DNA of 64,000 nucleotides, from positions 2,643,903 to 2,707,902 of the forward strand of contig NZ_CH672387.1 of NCBI RefSeq assembly GCF_000153465.1. The letters run 5' to 3'. The DNA comes from Aurantimonas manganoxydans SI85-9A1 (GTDB lineage: Bacteria; Pseudomonadota; Alphaproteobacteria; Rhizobiales; Rhizobiaceae). Under the pieces are notes generated by a model. The model was not told where the DNA came from, did not search any database, and worked only from the letters and a program-made list of their open reading frames with translations. Shown here one piece after another: positions 10,115-18,928 of this stretch. Every line of letters begins with the position of its first letter. The stretch's first letter is position 1. Both the position numbers and the translations under genes were made by a program.

Positions 10115-10244
10115 CGGCGATAGCGTCGCCAATCTCGTCCGCGCCTTTCATCGCGCTGTAGGACGAGATTGGCGGCGCGGTGGTCACCAGCGGTTTCCGG
10201 TTAGGCTTGGGTTGCGAGACCTAACTGCAACCGGAGATCCCCTG

Positions 10245-11444
10245 ATGACCAATGACATGATGGGCCTGCGCAGCCTTCTGGAGAAGACCCCTGATGCCGA
10301 TCTGCTGCGCGAGATGATCGGCTTTGCCGCCGAGCGGCTGATGGAACTGGAGGTCGGTGCCGCGACTGGCGCCGGCTATGGCGAGAAGAGTGCCGAGCGC
10401 CTCGCCCAGCGCAATGGCTACCGCGACAGGGACTGGCAGACGAGAGCCGGCACAGTCGAGTTGCGCATCCCAAAGCTGCGCAGGGGCAGCTACTTTCCCG
10501 GCTTTCTGGAGCCGCGGCGCATGGCCGAGAAGGCCCTGACGGCCGTCATTCAAGAGGCCTATGTCCAGGGCATCTCGACGCGCTCGGTCGACGACCTGGT
10601 CAAGGCGATGGGCATGACCGGCATCTCCAAGAGCCAGGTGTCGAGGCTGTGTGAAGAGATCGACGGCAAGGTAAAAGCCTTTCTGGAGCGGCCGATCGAA
10701 GGCGACTGGCCCTATCTCTGGATCGACGCCACCTACCTCAAGGTCCGCCGCGGCGGCCGCATCGTCTCGGTTGCCGTGATCATCGCCGTCGGCGTCAACG
10801 CCGATGGCCGGCGTGAGGTTCTCGGCATGGAGATCGGCACCTCGGAAGCCGAGCCGATCTGGACCGAGTTCCTGAGAAAGCTGACCCGACGCGGCCTTCG
10901 CGGCGTGAAGCTCGTCGTGTCCGACGCTCACGAGGGCATCAAAGCCGCGGTCACCAAGGTGCTAACGGCGACATGGCAGCGCTGCCGCGTGCACTTCATG
11001 CGCAACGTCCTGGCCCATGCTGGCAAGAGCGGCCGTCGTGTCGTCTCCGCCTTCATCGCCACCGCCTTTGCCCAAGAGACGCCAGAGGCCGCCAGCCAGC
11101 AATGGCGCTCCGTCGCCGACCAGATCCGGCCAAAGGTGCCGAAGCTCGCTGCCATCCTCGACGAGGCCGAGCCCGACGTGCTGGCCTACATGACCTTCCC
11201 TAGGGAGCATCGGGCCAAATTGCACAGCACGAATCCGATCGAGCGGCTGAACGGCGAGATCAAGCGGCGCACCGACGTCGTCGGCATCTTTCCCAACGAT
11301 GAGGCCATCCAGCGCCTCGTCGGCGCGCTGCTGCTCGAGCAAAATGATGAGTGGGCGGTTCAGCGGGCCAGGTACATGACACTGGAATCCGTCGCTCCCC
11401 TGAGCGATGATCCGTTCGTTAGCCTGCCAGCCGTGGCACGCTGA
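10245..11444 (+). CDS. IS256-family transposase
   Basis: A 399-residue mutator-type DDE transposase. Visible in order are [38 protein letters not shown], the first Asp in [10 protein letters not shown], the second Asp in VVSDAHEGI, the CxxH motif in CRVHFMRN, and the catalytic Glu in [14 protein letters not shown]. The start chosen is ATG 10245 (MTNDMMGL) with GGAG 11 nt upstream; an upstream in-frame ATG at 10212 lacks a ribosome binding site. No frameshift or stop is present, so the enzyme is probably active and catalyses copy/circle-forming transposition of its own element. Confidence 0.95.
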
Positions 11445-11483
11445 TCAATCCGGCTTGGCCGGAACCGCACGGCCATCGCCGTC

Positions 11484-11510
11484 AGCTACACCACATGGTG
11501 GGACACTATC
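11484..11510 (-). repeat. IS256 right terminal inverted repeat
   Basis: Inverted partner of 10088-10114; the element ends at 11510, immediately before the second AGCCGTTG. Confidence 0.88.
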
Positions 11511-11518
11511 AGCCGTTG
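11511..11518. repeat. Target site duplication of the IS256 element, right copy
   Basis: Exact copy of 10080-10087. Removing 10088-11518 leaves one copy and rejoins the relaxase frame. Confidence 0.9.
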
Positions 11519-12513
11519 ATGGAGCAGCGATCCTGCGGCGCCTGACGATTGAAAATCATTGGAAGTGTGAATGGCTTGACGACCTTCCCGCCGAAAAGGG
11601 GGCATCGTCGACCTCCAACCATAAACTGCAGCACAGATGGCCGGCACTGACGCGCATCGCAGGGGAAGAAACGCGGAGGTGGCTCGAAGCGTTCGATCCA
11701 CATAAAGTCATGGCGTTCGCGGGGCTTGTGCTTGAGGCTTGTGTCTTGGACGAGCGCTGGCGCGTCGCTTGTTGGCGCCTCGATCTCGATGAAAAGACGC
11801 CTCATTTGTCGGTTTTCGTCGTACCGCTCAGGCAGAGCCATTCGAAAACAGGTGAATCAAAAACCTGGGTCAGCGTGCGTACACATCTCGGAAAAAGGCA
11901 TCAGCTCAGCGCGCTGCAAGACTGGGCCGGGGAGGTTTGCGCTCCGATTGGCCTCGTCCGCGGACGGCCGTGGTCCGAGACAGGCGCGCGGCACGTCTCG
12001 CCGAGCCGCTATCGATTTCAGGCGCTGAAGGCGGCAGAAGCAGACCTCGCCCAGCGCGAAGCTGCGCTTCTGGCGAAAGAAGAAGAGTGCGAAGCCAGAC
12101 AGAACGCTCTCGATGCCCGAGACGCAGCAGCCGCGGCGCGCGAAGCTGCAGATCAGAAGCGGCAAGCAGCCCAGAAGCTCGCCGAACGTGAACTTTCGCA
12201 GAAGCAATCGCTGCTGGACGACGATATGGATCGCGCCGCGAATGCGATCCACGCGGCCGCGGGGATCCTGAAACGTAGTCCATCCTCGGGGGCGGCTTCC
12301 TCGCTGTATCGCTTCCTCTCTGACTCTTTGCCTGAGCGGCCGGCGTCCAAGGCCGACGAAATTCAGGCGGTCCTTGGGGAATGGGTGCAGCGAACGAGTA
12401 GAGTAGCGCAATCATCGCCGCACCGCACCCCCGAGAAGCCGATGCTTCCGACCTTGGTCTTCGATGAACCCAAACTGTCAAATAACGATGGGGTCGATAA
12501 GGCGCGCCCGTAG
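11519..12513 (+). pseudogene. MobV/Pre-type relaxase, C-terminal part (split by IS256)
   Basis: This segment continues codon 118 of the frame begun at 9736. It carries KVMAFAGLVLEA and the MobV metal/catalytic signature LDLDEKTPHLSVFVVPL (family form HxDExTPHxH), placed near residue 205 of the joined protein. Then come GKRHQLSALQDWAGEV, IGLVRG and SPSRYRFQALK. A long Ala/Glu/Arg-rich coiled coil (about 12020-12210) follows, as in other Mob/Pre proteins. The first histidine of the signature appears as Leu. Without the N-terminal part it should be inactive. Stop at 12511-12513, 44 nt before the convergent metallophosphoesterase gene. Confidence 0.78.
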
Positions 12514-12556: not shown

Positions 12557-13363
12557 CTAGTCAGTGGACGCCGCTTCGATCAAGCAGTTGCGTTTGAAAC
12601 CCCTCGCCTCATCGGCACGGCCAAGCGGGTTCGCGACGACCTGCGTTTCTCCAACCCTGTAGTCGCGGGCCGCATGGATATGCCCGTGGATCCAGACCCG
12701 CGGCCGCCACGTCTCAATCGCAGGCTCGAGGTCCGAAGCGTAGCAATGGTCCAGCGGGTCGTGCGGAAGCGCGAGGGAGCGCAAGCTCGGCGCATGATGC
12801 GTGACCACGACTGTACGGCGTGGGTCGATGTCTCCGGCGAATGCGTCGGCCAGAAACCGGCACGAGGCACGGTGCCAGGCGAGCGTCGTTGCCGGCGTGA
12901 TCCGCCGCGAGCGCCGGGTCGACGAGGCGCGGTGGATGCAGCGGTAGTCGTTCATTCCGCGTCGTGCCGCCGCATGGGCCTGCGCTCGGCTGACGTGAAG
13001 GTGCGACCGCAGATCCGTCCAGAGCGTTGCTCCGAGGACTGTCATGCCATTGATCGTCGCGGCATCGTCGGACAGGAGCGTGATCCCGAGCCTGGCGGCC
13101 AGGTCACGGCCCGCCTGAAGCTCGTCCTCGACGGTGAAGCCATTCGGCGAGCCATCGCGGTACCAATCGTGATTGCCGGGGACATAGATCGTCGGCACCC
13201 CGGCAAACCGCTCTCCCAGCCATTTGAGCGAGGCCGTCAGCCTGCCGGCGCAGTCGCCTGCAACGATGGCAATGTCGAACGCCGCGGTGATCTCGGTTGC
13301 CGGATCGAAGAAGCGGCCGCCGTCATTCTGATGGAGGTCCGACAGGACGAGCAACCGTGTCAT
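12557..13363 (-). CDS. Calcineurin-like metallophosphoesterase
   Basis: A 268-residue protein with the full metallophosphoesterase metal-site set: LSDLHQN (D8, H10), VAGDCAG, VPGNHDWY, VTHHAPS and HGHIHAARDY. These bind two divalent metals and hydrolyse phosphomonoesters, phosphodiesters or nucleotides; the substrate cannot be read from the sequence. There is no signal peptide, so it should be cytosolic. Its ATG overlaps the stop of the FtsH-like protease gene (ATGA, 13360-13363), a strong sign of translational coupling and joint function. It ends convergently 44 nt from the relaxase remnant. Confidence 0.88.
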   Translation of the reverse strand: MTRLLVLSDLHQNDGGRFFDPATEITAAFDIAIVAGDCAGRLTASLKWLGERFAGVPTIYVPGNHDWYRDGSPNGFTVEDELQAGRDLAARLGITLLSDDAATINGMTVLGATLWTDLRSHLHVSRAQAHAAARRGMNDYRCIHRASSTRRSRRITPATTLAWHRASCRFLADAFAGDIDPRRTVVVTHHAPSLRSLALPHDPLDHCYASDLEPAIETWRPRVWIHGHIHAARDYRVGETQVVANPLGRADEARGFKRNCLIEAASTD

Positions 13364-15357
13364 GCGGGCCCTCCGTGGTCAGGATCGATGAACCCATGGC
13401 CCCTTGCGAACTCTGCGAGCGCCGCTCGTCCGAGAACACGGCGATCGAGCGCTAGATCGGCGAGCGCTTCAATTGCCGCCCGGTGCCGGCGCACGAGAAC
13501 GATCGTCTCGGCATAGAGCCGTGCCAGCCGACGATGGACGGCCGCGCCATCGATCTGTGCGCCATGCACGAGCGTGCCGCCGAACCCGAGGGACGTCTCC
13601 GCGTTCGCAACGATGCGGGTCACCTGGGCAAGGTCGGAACTGGCAGAGCCACCAGCGCCAGCCGAGGGCGAACCGAGGATGACCTCCTCTGCGGCACGAC
13701 CGGCCAGCATGCAGACCGCCTCCCTGACGACATCACCGGGTAGGCCCTCGAACGACCCCTCGTCCACATCGAAGACAACCGCGCCGCCGCTGTGTTCCGT
13801 CTCGACGAGCGACAGCGATGTCGGCACCTGCCCGAAGTTCATCCGGGCAACGGCGTGGCCAGCCTCATGGATGGCAATGCGCCGGCGAACAGCCGGCGCA
13901 CGCTCGTCGCCGGGAACCGCAACCGCGATCAGATCCTCGGTCTGGATGGACCGACCGGCAAGCCGGGCCCGGCGCCGTGCATCGCGGGCAATGCGCACGA
14001 CATCCGCTCCCGACAGCGTTCCGGCAAACAGCGTCGCGACCCGATCGATCGCAGACGCGTCGATGCCGTCGCCAAGATGGTGGCGGAAGATGCCGGCCAG
14101 TGATGCTTCGTCGGGCAGATCGATCCAGAACCGCCGGTCAAGGCGTCCCGACCGGACAAGTGCGGCATCGAGGTTTGCATCGTCATTGCAGGCCGCGATG
14201 ACCACGACGCCTTCGCGCCGACCAATCCCGTCGAGGCATTCCAGAAGGCAGGTCACGATCGCCGTGAACCAGGCGTCGGCGGACCTGTCGGATCCCCCGC
14301 GGCCCTGCACCGTGTCGATCTCGTCGATGAAGACGATCGCCGGCAAATTCTTCGCGGCCGCTTCGAACACGGCACGAATGGCCTTGGTGACGTCCCCCAG
14401 ATGACCGGACCTGTTCGACTGCCATTGGGCATATGAGGTGGCGATGAAGTGGACACCGGCAGAGTTCGCGATCGCCTGGGCCAGCAGGGTCTTGCCCGTC
14501 CCGGGCGGGCCGACGAACAGCGCCCCGGCATCGACGTCCTCCCAGCCGATCGTGCCCTCACGATAGGCAGACAGATCGGCAACGAGTTGCAGGGCCCAGC
14601 GCCCGGCCTCACCATAGCCATGCAGGTCTTCTATGCGCGGCCGCGCTGCGCCGGTTGTGCCAGCGGGTCCAGCACCGGAGCGCGCGTCATCCGCCAGCCG
14701 CAGTCCACTGATCTCCTGGAGCAGGCTCAGACGCTCGGCGGGGGAGCGGCCGCGCCCGACCGCAAAGTCGAGTTCGAGCGGCCGGTAGGCCGAGCCCATC
14801 GTTCCGTCCGGCAGATGGGGCAGCGCGTCGCCCAGGCCGAGCAGGCGTTCGATATTCTCGCGTGCAGGATCGGCGATCTCGACGACAGCATCCGAGATAG
14901 CGCGCAGCATCTCTGGCGGTTCATGGTCAGGCGGAAAGAGGCAGAGGCAGGGTGACGCCTCGGCCAGCATCTCGGGCAGACGCTGAAGCTCGAACGGATA
15001 GCCGTGCTCGAGGCGGCTCTCGGACGTTGCCGTCAAAACGGTGATCGGCAGGTATTGATCGGGCCATGCGGCGCGGATCGACGCCTTCACCGCTTGCCGT
15101 GCCGTGTCGAGCCACTCAGGCGAGAACACCCTGACGGTGACGAGGAGCGTCCGCTCCCCTCGCGAGCGTGTGGCGGCCGCGACGTTGCCGTCGATGGCAT
15201 CGAACAACAGGCGCGCGGACGGGCTCAGCGCCGCGACGATCCGATCCCTGTGCGAACCCGAATCCGCGATGTCGTCCACTTCGCCTTGCATGACGTATTG
15301 TTCCCTTCGCGCGCGCTCGCGCAGCTGTTCGAAGCCTGTTCGCAGATCTGTCGGCAT
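13360..15357 (-). CDS. Soluble FtsH-like AAA+ ATPase / M41-type zinc protease
   Basis: A 665-residue protein started at ATG 15357, preceded by GAGGAAGG at ideal spacing; the frame is open further upstream but without a signal. Residues 1-250 form a region I cannot assign and contain no evident membrane helix, unlike FtsH. The AAA+ domain has Walker A GPPGTGKT (283-290), Walker B VFIDEID (342-348) and arginine fingers in VRSGRLDRR (401-409). The protease domain has HEAGH (497-501) and the third zinc ligand Asp at about 575 in SSDLAQVT. It should unfold and degrade selected cytosolic proteins using ATP. Next gene overlaps by 4 nt. Family assignment is sure, substrate unknown. Confidence 0.9.
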   Translation of the reverse strand: MPTDLRTGFEQLRERARREQYVMQGEVDDIADSGSHRDRIVAALSPSARLLFDAIDGNVAAATRSRGERTLLVTVRVFSPEWLDTARQAVKASIRAAWPDQYLPITVLTATSESRLEHGYPFELQRLPEMLAEASPCLCLFPPDHEPPEMLRAISDAVVEIADPARENIERLLGLGDALPHLPDGTMGSAYRPLELDFAVGRGRSPAERLSLLQEISGLRLADDARSGAGPAGTTGAARPRIEDLHGYGEAGRWALQLVADLSAYREGTIGWEDVDAGALFVGPPGTGKTLLAQAIANSAGVHFIATSYAQWQSNRSGHLGDVTKAIRAVFEAAAKNLPAIVFIDEIDTVQGRGGSDRSADAWFTAIVTCLLECLDGIGRREGVVVIAACNDDANLDAALVRSGRLDRRFWIDLPDEASLAGIFRHHLGDGIDASAIDRVATLFAGTLSGADVVRIARDARRRARLAGRSIQTEDLIAVAVPGDERAPAVRRRIAIHEAGHAVARMNFGQVPTSLSLVETEHSGGAVVFDVDEGSFEGLPGDVVREAVCMLAGRAAEEVILGSPSAGAGGSASSDLAQVTRIVANAETSLGFGGTLVHGAQIDGAAVHRRLARLYAETIVLVRRHRAAIEALADLALDRRVLGRAALAEFARGHGFIDPDHGGPA

Positions 15358-15520
15358 CGGAGCCTTCCTCGCGTCTTCGGTCCGGTCGGCACGGCGGTTG
15401 CTGGCATCGCGGACGAAGGAGAGCGCTGATGGCAGCGCCCTCCCCTTCGCCGTGCCAAGCCGTTGCCCAGCGCAAACCGATGGCCTGACAACCTGGTGAT
15501 GCCGGACGTAGGCGTCGTGG

Positions 15521-15781
15521 TTACGAGACCGATCCACTGCGCACGCGCAGCAGCGGCTCGAGATGATTGGCAAGGACCGCGGCCTTTGGATCATCGACCT
15601 GGCGAAGCCGACCGATCAGCGACGCAATCTCGCCGCGCGCCGCACCGGCGCGGCTGCGGCGGATGGTGTAGGCCACCAGGGTGGACGCCGGCATGGCGCA
15701 GATCCGCGCCGAGACCGCAGCCGGCTTGCACCTGTCACGCGAACCCTCCCGGTCACCTCGGGCAAACGGCACCACGGTCAT
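15521..15781 (-). CDS. Small basic hypothetical protein in the protease unit
   Basis: An 86-residue frame whose ATG overlaps the stop of the upstream gene (ATGA at 15778-15781), which supports it being real and coupled. It is rich in Arg and Ala, with a probable helical segment GEIASLIGRLRQVDDPKAAVLANHLEPLL. No known motif is visible. It could be an adaptor or a regulator of the neighbouring protease, but that is only a guess from position. A 163-nt gap separates it from the protease start. Confidence 0.55.
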   Translation of the reverse strand: MTVVPFARGDREGSRDRCKPAAVSARICAMPASTLVAYTIRRSRAGAARGEIASLIGRLRQVDDPKAAVLANHLEPLLRVRSGSVS

Positions 15782-16731
15782 GTCCGGCCCCGTTGCCGGG
15801 AGCGACTGCTACTTCCAGACACCAGTGCCAGCCGGCGGCGTTCATGCGGACCGACCAGGCGCTGCGGCAGACGGGGAGCGCAACCGACTGGCCTGGTTGA
15901 CCTGACCGCGAGCTCCCTCGGTGCATGACCATCGCTCTCGGTCCACTCGTCCGCGCCGCCTTGTGTCACATCCGGCGTGTCAAACACTCGGCCAACCAAC
16001 CGCTGCATCTCGGCCGAGTAACCCGTCGCGATCGTCTGGTTGAACAGCTCGATCAGCGGCGTGATCGGAACATCGAAGAACGTGTCGATCTCGGCGCCGG
16101 ACACAGAGCGGTCTTTCGCAAAGCCGGCAGCACCCGCGAGATCAATGATCCCCCATGACGCCGAAGCGATCGAGACCTTCACGCGGCGAAGGGCGGCGGG
16201 AGCAGTGAGCGAACAGGCGGCCATCGCGGTGCACAGGTCGAGGCGCGCCCGCGAAGAGTAGAGGGCACTGCCGCGCTTGACGTCGAGCAACGTCGCATGG
16301 CCGGTGGTCCGGTCGATAACGATGAGATCGACCGCAAGGTACCGGACGGGTCGCTCCTCATCGCCGAGGACGACATTCCTGGCCGTCTCCTGGTCGCCGA
16401 TGGAGAGTGCGGTTGCTGTGATGGGCAGGCGCGTTTCCTGCAGCACCTTCAGCCGCGGATCGGCTTCGAGACCGATCGCGATGACGCCCGGCAGCGCCTG
16501 CCCGACGCGGGTGGTGACCGAAAGCCCGAAGGCCTGGAGTGGCGTCCACGCACCGAAGCATGGATCTTCGACGGTCGGGCTTGCAGCGGCGGCGGCCGCC
16601 TTGGCGACGATATCGAGCGCAAGCGATTGCACACGCGCTTCCGGTGTCGACGCGGCGCGGGGTTCCTCCTTGGCCTGCTGGGAGTGGCGGCCGTCTGGTT
16701 TGCTGGTTCCAAGTTTGCTGGTTCTGGGCAT
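15778..16731 (-). CDS. Hypothetical protein with possible PD-(D/E)xK nuclease-like core
   Basis: A 317-residue protein from ATG 16731, which has GAGGAA 6 nt upstream; the frame extends further upstream without such a signal. The N-terminal 30 residues are basic and likely disordered. In the centre, YLAVDLIVIDRTTGHATLLDVKRG (about 131-154) places Asp135 on one strand and Asp150-x-Lys152 on the next, the pattern of PD-(D/E)xK nuclease folds. The C-terminus is again basic. The call rests on one motif and is tentative; a non-catalytic DNA-binding role is equally possible. It overlaps the next gene by 4 nt. Confidence 0.6.
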   Translation of the reverse strand: MPRTSKLGTSKPDGRHSQQAKEEPRAASTPEARVQSLALDIVAKAAAAAASPTVEDPCFGAWTPLQAFGLSVTTRVGQALPGVIAIGLEADPRLKVLQETRLPITATALSIGDQETARNVVLGDEERPVRYLAVDLIVIDRTTGHATLLDVKRGSALYSSRARLDLCTAMAACSLTAPAALRRVKVSIASASWGIIDLAGAAGFAKDRSVSGAEIDTFFDVPITPLIELFNQTIATGYSAEMQRLVGRVFDTPDVTQGGADEWTESDGHAPRELAVRSTRPVGCAPRLPQRLVGPHERRRLALVSGSSSRSRQRGRT

Positions 16732-16876
16732 AGCGGTTCCTCCGCGTCCGCGATGACGATCGGCGGACGACGTGTCTGGAATGATGAGATGAGCGAGAGC
16801 AGCGCCGATCGACACGGGGACACGTGACGATCGGGCGTCGGCCACCCCGCATGGCGGAATGGTCAGCGTCGGCTGT

Positions 16877-17437
16877 CTAGGCGGAGGTGACGATGTTGCC
16901 GAACGGGCCAGCGTCGACCCTGCAGATCACGCGGATCCGCGCGAGCCTGGTCAGCAGACCATCGTCGATCACGCAGCCGGGGGCATTGATCCCCTCAGGC
17001 GGGACCAGAAACAGCTGCCTGTCGCTGAGCGTCATCAGCAGCCAGCGTGTTGCGGTGATCTCGCTGGCGGAGAACACCGGGCCGAACGGCATGGAGACGG
17101 TCGCGGCCGCTCGTGCGTCGGGGACGCGCTCGTCATGGACAGACCGCGGAGCGGCCGCCGGCGAGCGTTCCAGTTCGCAGGGGGAGTTGGCCGGGCCCGC
17201 CCTGCCCTTCACGATGCTCGGCACCGTCGCGCCGGCAAATGCTGCCGGGACCGCCGGCGGCTCATCACAGGGCTCGAAGAGATCGTGCTGCGCGAAGGCC
17301 ATGCCGGCACGCAATGCGGCATGCCGCGAGACCTCAGGCCTTGGCGCCAGGCTTGCCTGATGCTGAAGGGGCGGACGGATGGACGTGATTGGGGTATTGC
17401 AAGACGCACGGGTGCGCGTCATCACGGTGTGAGCCAT
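16877..17437 (-). CDS. Hypothetical protein, first gene of the protease unit
   Basis: A 186-residue frame from ATG 17437 with AGGAGAT 5 nt upstream, a strong ribosome binding site. The N-terminal half is low-complexity (Pro, Ala, Arg). The C-terminal ~70 residues look folded: SMPFGPVFSASEITATRW, LLMTLSDRQLFLVPP and LARIRVICRVDAGPFGN. I recognise no family. As the first gene of a same-strand run of five ending at 12557, it probably shares their promoter, which would lie in 17440-17700. Confidence 0.6.
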   Translation of the reverse strand: MAHTVMTRTRASCNTPITSIRPPLQHQASLAPRPEVSRHAALRAGMAFAQHDLFEPCDEPPAVPAAFAGATVPSIVKGRAGPANSPCELERSPAAAPRSVHDERVPDARAAATVSMPFGPVFSASEITATRWLLMTLSDRQLFLVPPEGINAPGCVIDDGLLTRLARIRVICRVDAGPFGNIVTSA

Positions 17438-17974
17438 TCTGATCTCCTAGCCGAGTCAGTGATGGTCAGGCTGCTGGGTGGAGTTCGCGCTCCCCCGGTA
17501 GCCGCCCTCTAAGCGCTACCTGCATTCCGACCGATGTTGCGACCGCGTGATTGCGGGCGTATCAGCGATATTGGCGGGAAATCGTGGATGACAAGTAAAT
17601 GCCGGAAGTATTTTTGAATCACTCCGGCAAGTGTCACGCAGTTGAATAAAACTCGATCGAAATATCGATCCAGGCGTATAGCGTCCAGTCGCGTAGCAAT
17701 TGTCACCTCTGCTAGTTGTGGACGCCACTTAAGCACCACCCCAACAGCATGACAGCCAGCACACAATGTGCTATCCCCACTGAAGCCTCCGCCCGGCATG
17801 CGGGAAGCTCTCTTGTGCTAAAACCACCACAAGCCACCTTCGCAACAGACTGCTCTTCCTTGGAAACGGACAAAGGCACCGCTTTCGACGGGAACCACGG
17901 AATTGCGAAACTTAGGTCAACAGCCTACGCCTATAAATGTTGTATTGCCGACTATCGTTCTCGATACATCCCTA
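17438..17974. other. Intergenic stretch at the edge of the accessory region
   Basis: I see no supportable gene here. Composition is richer in A and T than the chromosome to the right, fitting a promoter region plus the border of an acquired segment. A short perfect dyad GATCGA-AATA-TCGATC lies near 17653-17668, upstream of the protease unit. No tRNA or recognisable attachment site was found at the border with the BrkB-like gene. Confidence 0.5.
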
Positions 17975-18928
17975 CTAACCATTGCCCAATTTATCCCGAC
18001 GCAGGGCGCGGGCGAGCCGGCGGATCCGGATGGCGCGGTTGAGCTCGCCGCCGAAGATCAGCACCAGGGCGGCCAGATACAGGAAGTACAGCGCCGCGAT
18101 GATCCCGGCGAGGCCGGCATAGTAGCTGGCGTAATTGGCGAACTGGCCGATATAGACCGAGAAGGCCGCCACGAGCGCCGACCAGGCGCAGAGCGTGAAC
18201 AGGATGCCCGGCCACATGTTGCTGAAGCGCGAGCGCCGCGCCGGCAGGAAGACATGGGCGACGAACAGAGCCGTCGTCAGGATCGCCGCGGTCGCGGGAT
18301 AGCGCACCAGGCTGGGCGTGACCGAGGACGGCTGGAAGCCCGGCATCAGCTGGTGCAGGAACGATCCGGCGCGCGGCGCCAGGACCAGGAGATAGCCGAC
18401 GACGACAAGCACCAGCCCGGTCAGGACGACGGTCAGCACCTGCAGGAGATAGAGGACGATGGTCGAGCGGGTCTCGCGAATGTCATAGGCGCGGTTCAGG
18501 CCGACACGGACGCCGTCGACGCCGCCGATAGCAAACCAGATCGTCAGGAGAACGCCGACGCTGAGCACCCCGCCCCGCCGTATGGTGACGATGTTCATCA
18601 CCTCCGACACCAGCGGCTCGGCCAGGGCCGGTGGAACGATGGCGATCAGGAAGGTGACGAGGCCGTCGGCCATTTCGCGATTGCCGATGAAGGCCGTGAG
18701 CGAACTGGCGAAGATCAGGAACGGAAAGATGGCGAGAACGGCGCGGAAGGCGATGTTGCCGGCCAGCCCCATGGCGTCGTCGTTCCACAGGCGCAGGATG
18801 GCTTCCCGCAGCACCGCCCAGACCGCCCGCCAGCCCGAGCCGAAGAGGAGATCCTCGGGATGCTCGCTCAGGACTCCGTTTGGCCGGCGCTTGTCGCGCG
18901 CGGTTTCGTTTTCGGCCTTTGCGTCCAT
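17975..18928 (-). CDS. YihY/BrkB-family inner membrane protein
   Basis: A 317-residue protein with about six hydrophobic segments (for example AIFPFLIFASSLTAFIG, VGVLLTIWFAIGGVDG, ILTTALFVAHVFLP, LAGIIAALYFLYLAALVLIFGGELN). The DDAMGLAGNIAFRAVLAIFPFL start and the GGELN end near the C-terminus are marks of the UPF0761/YihY family. Its biochemical role is not established; the old name ribonuclease BN is wrong for this family. It is the first typical core-chromosome gene after the accessory region. Confidence 0.88.
   Translation of the reverse strand: MDAKAENETARDKRRPNGVLSEHPEDLLFGSGWRAVWAVLREAILRLWNDDAMGLAGNIAFRAVLAIFPFLIFASSLTAFIGNREMADGLVTFLIAIVPPALAEPLVSEVMNIVTIRRGGVLSVGVLLTIWFAIGGVDGVRVGLNRAYDIRETRSTIVLYLLQVLTVVLTGLVLVVVGYLLVLAPRAGSFLHQLMPGFQPSSVTPSLVRYPATAAILTTALFVAHVFLPARRSRFSNMWPGILFTLCAWSALVAAFSVYIGQFANYASYYAGLAGIIAALYFLYLAALVLIFGGELNRAIRIRRLARALRRDKLGNG

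Follow-up and report, generated by a model that had tools for sequence, protein, structure and literature searches.

Gene content of the unit

The stretch of DNA analysed here, 64,000 nucleotides of Aurantimonas manganoxydans SI85-9A1 (contig NZ_CH672387.1, positions 2,643,903 to 2,707,902), is referred to as the window. It carries a gene unit encoding a nuclease-like protein, a small basic protein, a soluble protease of the FtsH type and a calcineurin-like metallophosphoesterase (MPE), preceded by an open frame of 186 residues (Table 1). A sequence-only reading had placed the five genes on one strand with ATGA overlaps at two junctions, and both observations held: the five open frames between 12557 and 17437 are all on the minus strand, and 4 nt are shared by the nuclease-like and the small gene (15778-15781) and by the protease and the MPE gene (13360-13363). 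Starts were chosen by eye from Shine-Dalgarno-like sequences (GGAGGAA/GAGGAAGG) just 5' of them. Position 16731 was preferred for the nuclease-like protein (317 residues) and position 15357 for the protease, where the 665-residue protein was taken over the frame of 744 residues.

Table 1. Features of the gene unit and its surroundings (positions in the window)
Feature	Position	Strand	Basis or remark
Calcineurin-like metallophosphoesterase (MPE), 268 aa	12557..13363	-	Pfam PF00149, PHROG 1649, PADLOC PDC-S10, metal-site residues
Soluble AAA+/M41 (FtsH-type) zinc protease, 665 aa	13360..15357	-	Frame open up to 15594; Pfam AAA and Peptidase_M41
Small basic protein, 86 aa, isoelectric point 11.3	15521..15781	-	Diverged family between nuclease-like gene and protease; leave-one-out profile
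PD-(D/E)xK nuclease-like protein, 317 aa	15778..16731	-	Frame extends without a stop to 16845
Doubtful first gene, open frame of 186 aa	16877..17437	-	Open in all three Aurantimonas copies
Upstream stretch, probable promoter or leader	17438..17608	-	Part of the block (12570-17608) shared with the second A. coralicida copy
Convergent mobilization-like gene, truncated 5' by an IS256-type insertion	11407..12513	+	Mob_Pre 19.9 bits, below the 25.5 cut-off

When the genus was searched with the whole unit, it was found at full length in 2 of 8 genomes, the second of which we took to be Aurantimonas coralicida. No internal stop was seen in any of the frames compared between the window and the two A. 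coralicida copies. The ratio of nonsynonymous to synonymous substitution (dN/dS), computed on the long frames, was 0.10-0.22 for the protease, 0.19-0.24 for the MPE and 0.28-0.30 for the nuclease-like protein, and reached 0.44-0.45 in the 186-residue frame and 0.59-0.83 in the small protein. These values indicate purifying selection on the MPE, the protease and the nuclease-like protein, and a weaker one on the 86- and 186-residue frames. The analysis confirmed the unit as real, with four well-supported genes, those for the nuclease-like protein, the small basic protein, the soluble AAA+/M41 protease and the MPE. The fifth gene, the 186-residue frame, is a doubtful member that was seen only in Aurantimonas. 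Its three copies share 84% protein identity, with a slight excess of changes at codon position 3 (17/16/27). It had no relative in the 46 protease loci described below, in Pfam, PADLOC or NCBIfam, and its PHROG match was at chance level (0.08). The nuclease-like and the small protein likewise matched no Pfam or PADLOC model and no named family in Pfam, PADLOC, NCBIfam or PHROGs. The protease and the MPE were matched by PADLOC models in part only.

A soluble protease of the FtsH type

The protease was recognised by the Pfam models for AAA (1.6e-29) and M41 (5e-10). Its HEAGH motif, Walker motifs and third metal ligand are invariant, the HEAGH and the third ligand in 12 aligned members. In the abstract of PMC9020784, FtsH-type proteases are described as membrane-anchored housekeeping enzymes. 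The highest mean hydropathy over 19 residues is 1.32 in the 665-residue protein of the window; the same genome encodes a housekeeping-type FtsH in which it is 2.53. By its sequence, the window protease is cytosolic and lacks the membrane anchor of FtsH. HExGH was present in 62 of 75 predicted frames of the protease family. Among the 13 frames lacking it are the AAA parts of two-gene proteases, AAA genes that are partial or of another kind, and three members of apparently full length (L057, L075 and L077). Alignments of tandem AAA proteins hinted at a degenerate second AAA domain in the N-terminal region; hhalign against the AAA domain gave 9% at best, and we do not claim such a domain.

In four loci (L110, L111, L112 and L124), motor and protease are naturally separated: AAA and M41 are encoded by two genes, and the nuclease-like and small genes are still found upstream of them.

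Recurrence and linkage in other genomes

The sequence-only reading had suggested a search for the same five-gene order elsewhere. Among the genomes searched, only the window's genome and A. coralicida had the exact order, but the pair of nuclease-like gene and protease recurs widely. Ten of the 46 protease loci that were read, window included, have the nuclease-like gene upstream of the protease in the same orientation, separated from it by a gap that holds a small open frame. Across 151 genomes of the family, the nuclease-like protein gave 46 matches in 33 genomes, and 40 of the 46 had a protease within 5 kb, always downstream and on the same strand. Profile seeds are kept in counts of this kind and were removed in a recount: without the 10 seeds, 30 of 36 matches had a same-strand protease at most 5 kb away, where chance would give about 0.16 in these 151 related genomes. 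The chance figures assume a reach of 12 kb in a 4.5-Mb genome. No housekeeping operon of like content was seen.

Around the pair, the genes for the small protein, the MPE, DUF6634, an exonuclease and the TnsA-like protein come and go. DUF6634, which was followed with an independent Pfam model, was near the protease in 28 of 48 cases and near any of the protease, the nuclease-like protein and the MPE in 35 of 48. The MPE was near the protease in 11 of 32 cases. After removal of its 9 seeds, 9 of 23 were near any partner and only 3 of 23 near the protease, so that the MPE is a loose, optional partner. For the protease itself, we used the 88 among the matches listed with E <= 2.4e-40. Weaker ones, which were mostly FtsH of the housekeeping type near 1e-35, and those beyond the listing were set aside. 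Only the window's, among these 88 best matches listed, has both a nuclease-like gene and an MPE within 5 kb, and 23 of the 88 have no nuclease-like gene, DUF6634 or MPE within that distance.

In the wider order, the nuclease-like gene was found in 16 of 397 genomes. This search provided 14 further loci (L099-L112, three from the same family). Seven of them have the protease, encoded in three by two genes, one for AAA and one for M41 (confirmed with Pfam for L110). Another three combine the nuclease-like gene, the MPE and DUF6634 (weak in one) with no M41 protease, two of these having a different AAA ATPase, and the remaining four are devoid of both protease and MPE.

Exchange of the partner upstream of the protease

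Many loci have, upstream of the protease, a protein of about 200 residues that is a profile relative of the TnsA of Tn7-like elements (hhalign 94.8%, E 5e-8). The second half of the catalytic motif was unrecognisable by eye in this protein. The name TnsA-like is based on matches below the cut-off in a single member (PF08722 0.0035, NF033179 4.4e-7) and on the annotation of two plasmids. We also considered whether the nuclease-like and TnsA-like proteins are detectable homologues; hhalign gave 0.1% and no profile match, and only their common position was retained.

The exchange was followed on a protease tree of 57 members, from which the window copy (near-identical to L081), L123 (a duplicate of L040) and split or short proteases were left out. 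The nuclease-like label requires 7 changes on this tree, at least 6 of them forced by well-supported branches, and the TnsA-like label 8, at least 5 of them forced. With shuffled labels, 12.5 and 14.8 changes were needed, respectively. Since the observed changes are fewer than with shuffled labels, the partner is also partly inherited. The A. coralicida proteases with a nuclease-like partner nest beside L227 and L041, which both have a TnsA-like partner, and the branch joining L227 is fully supported. The position upstream of the protease has switched repeatedly between a nuclease-like and a TnsA-like protein.

The nuclease-like protein, the small protein and the MPE

The nuclease-like protein of the window carries the PD-(D/E)xK signature as D...DVK. 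In the family, the D...[D/E]xK motif was preserved in 18 of the 26 members and disrupted in 8. The near-identical copies of the window and of A. coralicida are counted among these 26 frames, as they are among the 75 of the protease. The profile found no match among solved structures (best E 0.33). A weak structural model gave the helix-strand order, and its top structural matches were PD-(D/E)xK endonucleases such as EcoO109I. The protein may have a restriction-endonuclease-like fold, and DNA cleavage by it is putative only. Since the HExGH of the protease (62 of 75) is retained more often than the nuclease-like motif (18 of 26), we regard the protease as the constant part, and this is the pattern expected if proteolysis is constant and cleavage dispensable.

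The motif was lost by two separate routes in L048, L049 and L051 and in L103-L106, namely by a change of the lysine to I or V and by a change of the acidic residue to S. These occur in different groups, each still near a protease.

For the small protein, a profile was built without the window copy. It ranked the 86-residue gene first of 807 window frames with an E of 1.5e-5, the next frame having 0.27. The full profile was then applied to 13 further nuclease-like loci and recovered a member in 5 of the 9 with a protease (L110, L111, L112, L124 and L219; E<2e-9). None was found in L103-L106, three of which have a DUF6634 gene in the gap, and nothing convincing in the four loci that lack an M41 protease (L099, L101, L102 and L220). 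The best match in 20 control regions had an E of 0.088. Because the profile recovered the window gene first and a member in five of the nine protease loci, the small protein is a genuine but not universal part of the unit.

The MPE matched Pfam PF00149 above the cut-off (7.5e-10), PHROG 1649 (1.3e-34) and PADLOC PDC-S10 (1.6e-11). Its metal-binding residues DxH, GD, GNH, H and GHxH are invariant in 11 aligned members, including that of the window.

Copies within Aurantimonas

Aurantimonas coralicida DSM 14790 has two full copies of the unit. One of them (L081) is at the same site as in the window, beside brkB, and matches it with 94.7% over 13.5 kb. The other (L082) is at a different site and has in common with the window a 5051-bp block (12570-17608), consisting of the unit and the upstream stretch, plus one short stretch elsewhere. 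The unit is mobile. Upstream of the L082 block are a tRNA-Gln and a tyrosine-type integrase (PF00589 above cut-off), and downstream of it is a frame of 326 residues that is recombinase-like by eye and has no Pfam match. A search of L082 for a repeat of the tRNA-Gln 3' end as attachment site found no exact copy of at least 14 bases in the stretch examined. The same genome also holds a remnant with the protease end and the MPE (C7 of G538) and a fourth, diverged version (L227), in which the protease is 72% and the MPE 76% identical to those of the window and a TnsA-like gene replaces the nuclease-like gene.

In L227 (7266-17458), about 7 kb of genes that look transporter- or metabolism-like by eye separate the TnsA-like/protease pair from the MPE. 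A third related cluster is present in the window's own genome (L218, 7420-11003, contig position ~1.575 Mb) and consists of two DUF6634-like genes, an MPE and an integrase-like gene below the Pfam cut-off, with no protease among the called genes. The protein of the neighbouring brkB (17975-18928) is 100% identical to that of A. coralicida, and the gene has 3% synonymous differences versus 14-17% in the MPE, the protease and the nuclease-like gene. A separate history of unit and flank is not claimed from this difference; other bins of the flank have 89-93% identity, as low as the unit.

The mobilization gene that the sequence-only reading had placed next to the unit does match Mob_Pre, but the match is weak and stays below the cut-off (Table 1). 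The insertion in its 5' end encodes a Mutator/IS256-type transposase (10212-11444; PF00872, 2.3e-123) that is missing from the same A. coralicida site. In L081, the insertion-free gene has kept its 5' end and encodes 457 residues; its Mob_Pre score of 17.6 bits is also below the cut-off.

Mobile setting

In 6 of the 46 protease loci, TnsA-, TnsB- and TnsC-like genes closely follow the module in the same orientation, separated from it by no more than one called gene. The window's own genome has one of these six loci, its second copy (L006). No tnsA-tnsB-tnsC was present among the genes read around the window unit and the two A. coralicida copies. A Bosea plasmid carries the protease, the MPE and DUF6634 ahead of TnsA- and Mu-type transposase genes. 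On a Methylobacterium radiotolerans plasmid (L229, 3270-17724), genes of a cyclic-oligonucleotide-based anti-phage signalling system (CBASS) are followed by a pair of nuclease-like and 3'-5' exonuclease genes and then by tnsA-tnsB-tnsC-TniQ, with no protease. An exonuclease seems able to take the place of the protease there. Matches to the protease were found on 75 plasmid records, some of them possibly ordinary FtsH, and one plasmid matched the nuclease-like protein. A word search of the accessible text of two Tn7 surveys found no protease named as an element gene.

A collection of viral contigs was scanned with the protease. The scan returned 231 relatives, of which the best 80 were kept and the 12 most similar read (L113-L124). 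Seven of these 12 have the MPE or a second phosphoesterase family beside the protease. In a collection of phage records, no protease match was obtained at 1e-20. Relatives of the nuclease-like protein were not found in viral contigs with two narrower alignments, and a third alignment gave two. In L213 (2462-3196) and L214 (2007-2678), viral contigs with frames that are terminase-like by eye, a distant nuclease-like relative (EVKRGNG) is followed by a frame that is methyltransferase-like by eye.

Proteins encoded around the loci were compared with controls in a PADLOC scan (130 of 254 neighbouring and 130 of 246 control proteins). In all, 196 PADLOC families were matched among the neighbours and 15 among the controls, but 22 of the 25 neighbour matches listed are methylase models on two proteins, and we take the difference as no more than a hint. 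In the first 25 Pfam matches listed for each of the same sets, integrase, TniQ and ParA appeared among the neighbours.

Interpretation

The reading that we favour, tentatively and with a little less than even confidence, is that the unit is one version of a modular mobile-DNA cassette of Alphaproteobacteria, in which a constant protease works with an exchangeable nuclease-fold subunit that senses or recruits the target, probably in conflict between mobile elements or between an element and a phage. The proteins would act as a physical complex. The nuclease-fold subunit would recognise foreign or moving DNA, or a protein complex assembled there, and the small protein could be the linker or adaptor through which the bound protein is passed to the AAA+ ring. 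The ring would unfold and degrade this protein as its substrate, and the MPE, where present, might then act on nucleotides or DNA ends. Conflict among mobile elements, or between an element and a phage, appears the most likely purpose.

The Tn7-like association and the TnsA-like partner favour a role in the control of transposition, at least for the ancestor. The module would then have originated within Tn7-like elements, acting there to strip or break down the TnsA/TnsB complex by means of a degenerate TnsA-like adaptor, and stand-alone copies with a PD-(D/E)xK-like protein would target the recombination complexes of other elements. ClpX dismantles the Mu transposition complex and offers a parallel. 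The six loci upstream of tnsABC-like genes (L006 included), the Bosea plasmid, the relationship of the upstream protein to the elements' own TnsA and the protease-free nuclease-like/exonuclease pair upstream of tnsABC-TniQ in Methylobacterium all agree with this. However, 40 of the 46 loci have no such genes within five downstream genes (some loci end at contig ends), the window unit has none, and Tn7 cargo often holds defence genes, so that position alone cannot tell a part from cargo. We consider transposition control somewhat unlikely. Patchiness, modularity and an independent life on islands instead favour defence, with a phage or plasmid protein as the target. In its narrow sense, infection would activate the AAA+ protease while the nuclease-like protein and the MPE attack DNA or nucleotides. 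The sequence-only reading had likened the unit to defence or plasmid-stability modules; the composition and the mobility were borne out and no described counterpart was found, but defence is a candidate reading, and the Tn7-like association is at least as visible. Like defence genes, the unit is mobile, patchy, modular and partner-exchanging. The MPE matches PDC-S10, the AAA domain resembles IetA (3.5e-24), CBASS lies beside the nuclease-like/exonuclease pair, and cytosine methylases, TniQ and cyclase-like matches occur among the neighbours. The PADLOC matches listed for the neighbours, on the other hand, are mostly methylase models on two proteins, the IetA models cover the AAA domain only with no subtilisin partner in the unit, and relatives of the protease occur inside contigs of the viral collection. 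Narrow anti-phage defence is rather unlikely in our view. It overlaps with the cassette reading, and the likelihoods given here do not add up to one.

A maintenance or toxin-antitoxin device, in which the protease removes an unstable partner and the nuclease-like protein or the MPE is toxic, would suit the 4-nt overlap of the small basic gene with the nuclease-like gene and the carriage on plasmids and islands. It is improbable given an active site that is degenerate in 8 of 26 nuclease-like members, the outright replacement of that protein in many loci, a multi-gene size and partner exchange unusual for such devices, and the persistence of the remnant copy in A. coralicida. Housekeeping is unlikely because of the patchy distribution (33 of 151 genomes). 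A spare cytosolic protease for accessory proteostasis, accompanied by unrelated passengers, could account for the 23 of 88 listed protease matches that have no partner within 5 kb, but it leaves unexplained why the nuclease-like gene keeps the same strand and order relative to the protease (40 of 46) and why partners are exchanged at one position, and we hold it to be very improbable.

Returning to the mobile cassette, a bolder form of it is quite doubtful at present. Mobile conflict systems would gain a new class, in which a nuclease fold that often need not cut serves as a replaceable reader of DNA or transpososomes for a cytosolic FtsH-type protease. This class would have arisen in Tn7-like transposons to dismantle transposition complexes and then spread to islands, plasmids and prophages, degrading the recombination or replication proteins of rivals. 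If soluble, mobile FtsH relatives with a swappable nuclease-fold partner do act in this manner, proteolysis aimed at mobile DNA joins the known means of conflict between elements, and the way in which Tn7-like transposons disassemble their complexes becomes testable. The linkage, the exchange tree and the intact and degenerate sites point to which gene to mutate first.

Comparison with known systems

We rate the cassette as lying outside the described kinds of system, the enzyme families themselves being known. Among the titles and abstract openings listed from the open-access literature, none described the gene set, and a search there for DUF6634 found no paper. The nearest enzymes are FtsH (TIGR01241) and the M41 AAA+ proteases, with which the window protease shares AAA and M41 in one chain and the intact HEAGH, Walker A and third metal ligand. 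It differs from them by the missing membrane anchor, by a different N-terminal region of about 240 residues and by its score of 154.4 bits against the 600-bit cut-off of NCBIfam TIGR01241. Proteases of its type are also found on mobile DNA with partners, and some relatives are split into two genes. The nuclease-like protein resembles PD-(D/E)xK endonucleases of the EcoO109I type in the D...[D/E]xK motif, in the helix-strand order of the weak model and in the top structural matches. Unlike these, it matches no solved structure or Pfam family by sequence, and the motif is lost in 8 of 26 members.

The PADLOC candidate PDC-S10 is a metallophosphoesterase like that of the window, but the match is partial (residues 3-119). 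IetAS is an anti-phage system made up of the AAA ATPase IetA and its subtilisin-type partner IetS. The likeness consists in an AAA ATPase joined with a protease and in the match of the AAA domain to IetA models. Here, however, the AAA core alone matches (NF042959, 86.6 bits against a cut-off of 510), M41 is fused to AAA in place of a separate subtilisin, no S8 peptidase of the IetS type was matched by Pfam among the proteins of the unit, and nuclease-like and MPE genes are added. With Tn7-like transposons (TnsA/TnsB/TnsC/TniQ), the relatives of the unit share a place just upstream of tnsABC and a TnsA-like protein in the partner position, whereas the unit in the window stands without such a transposase.

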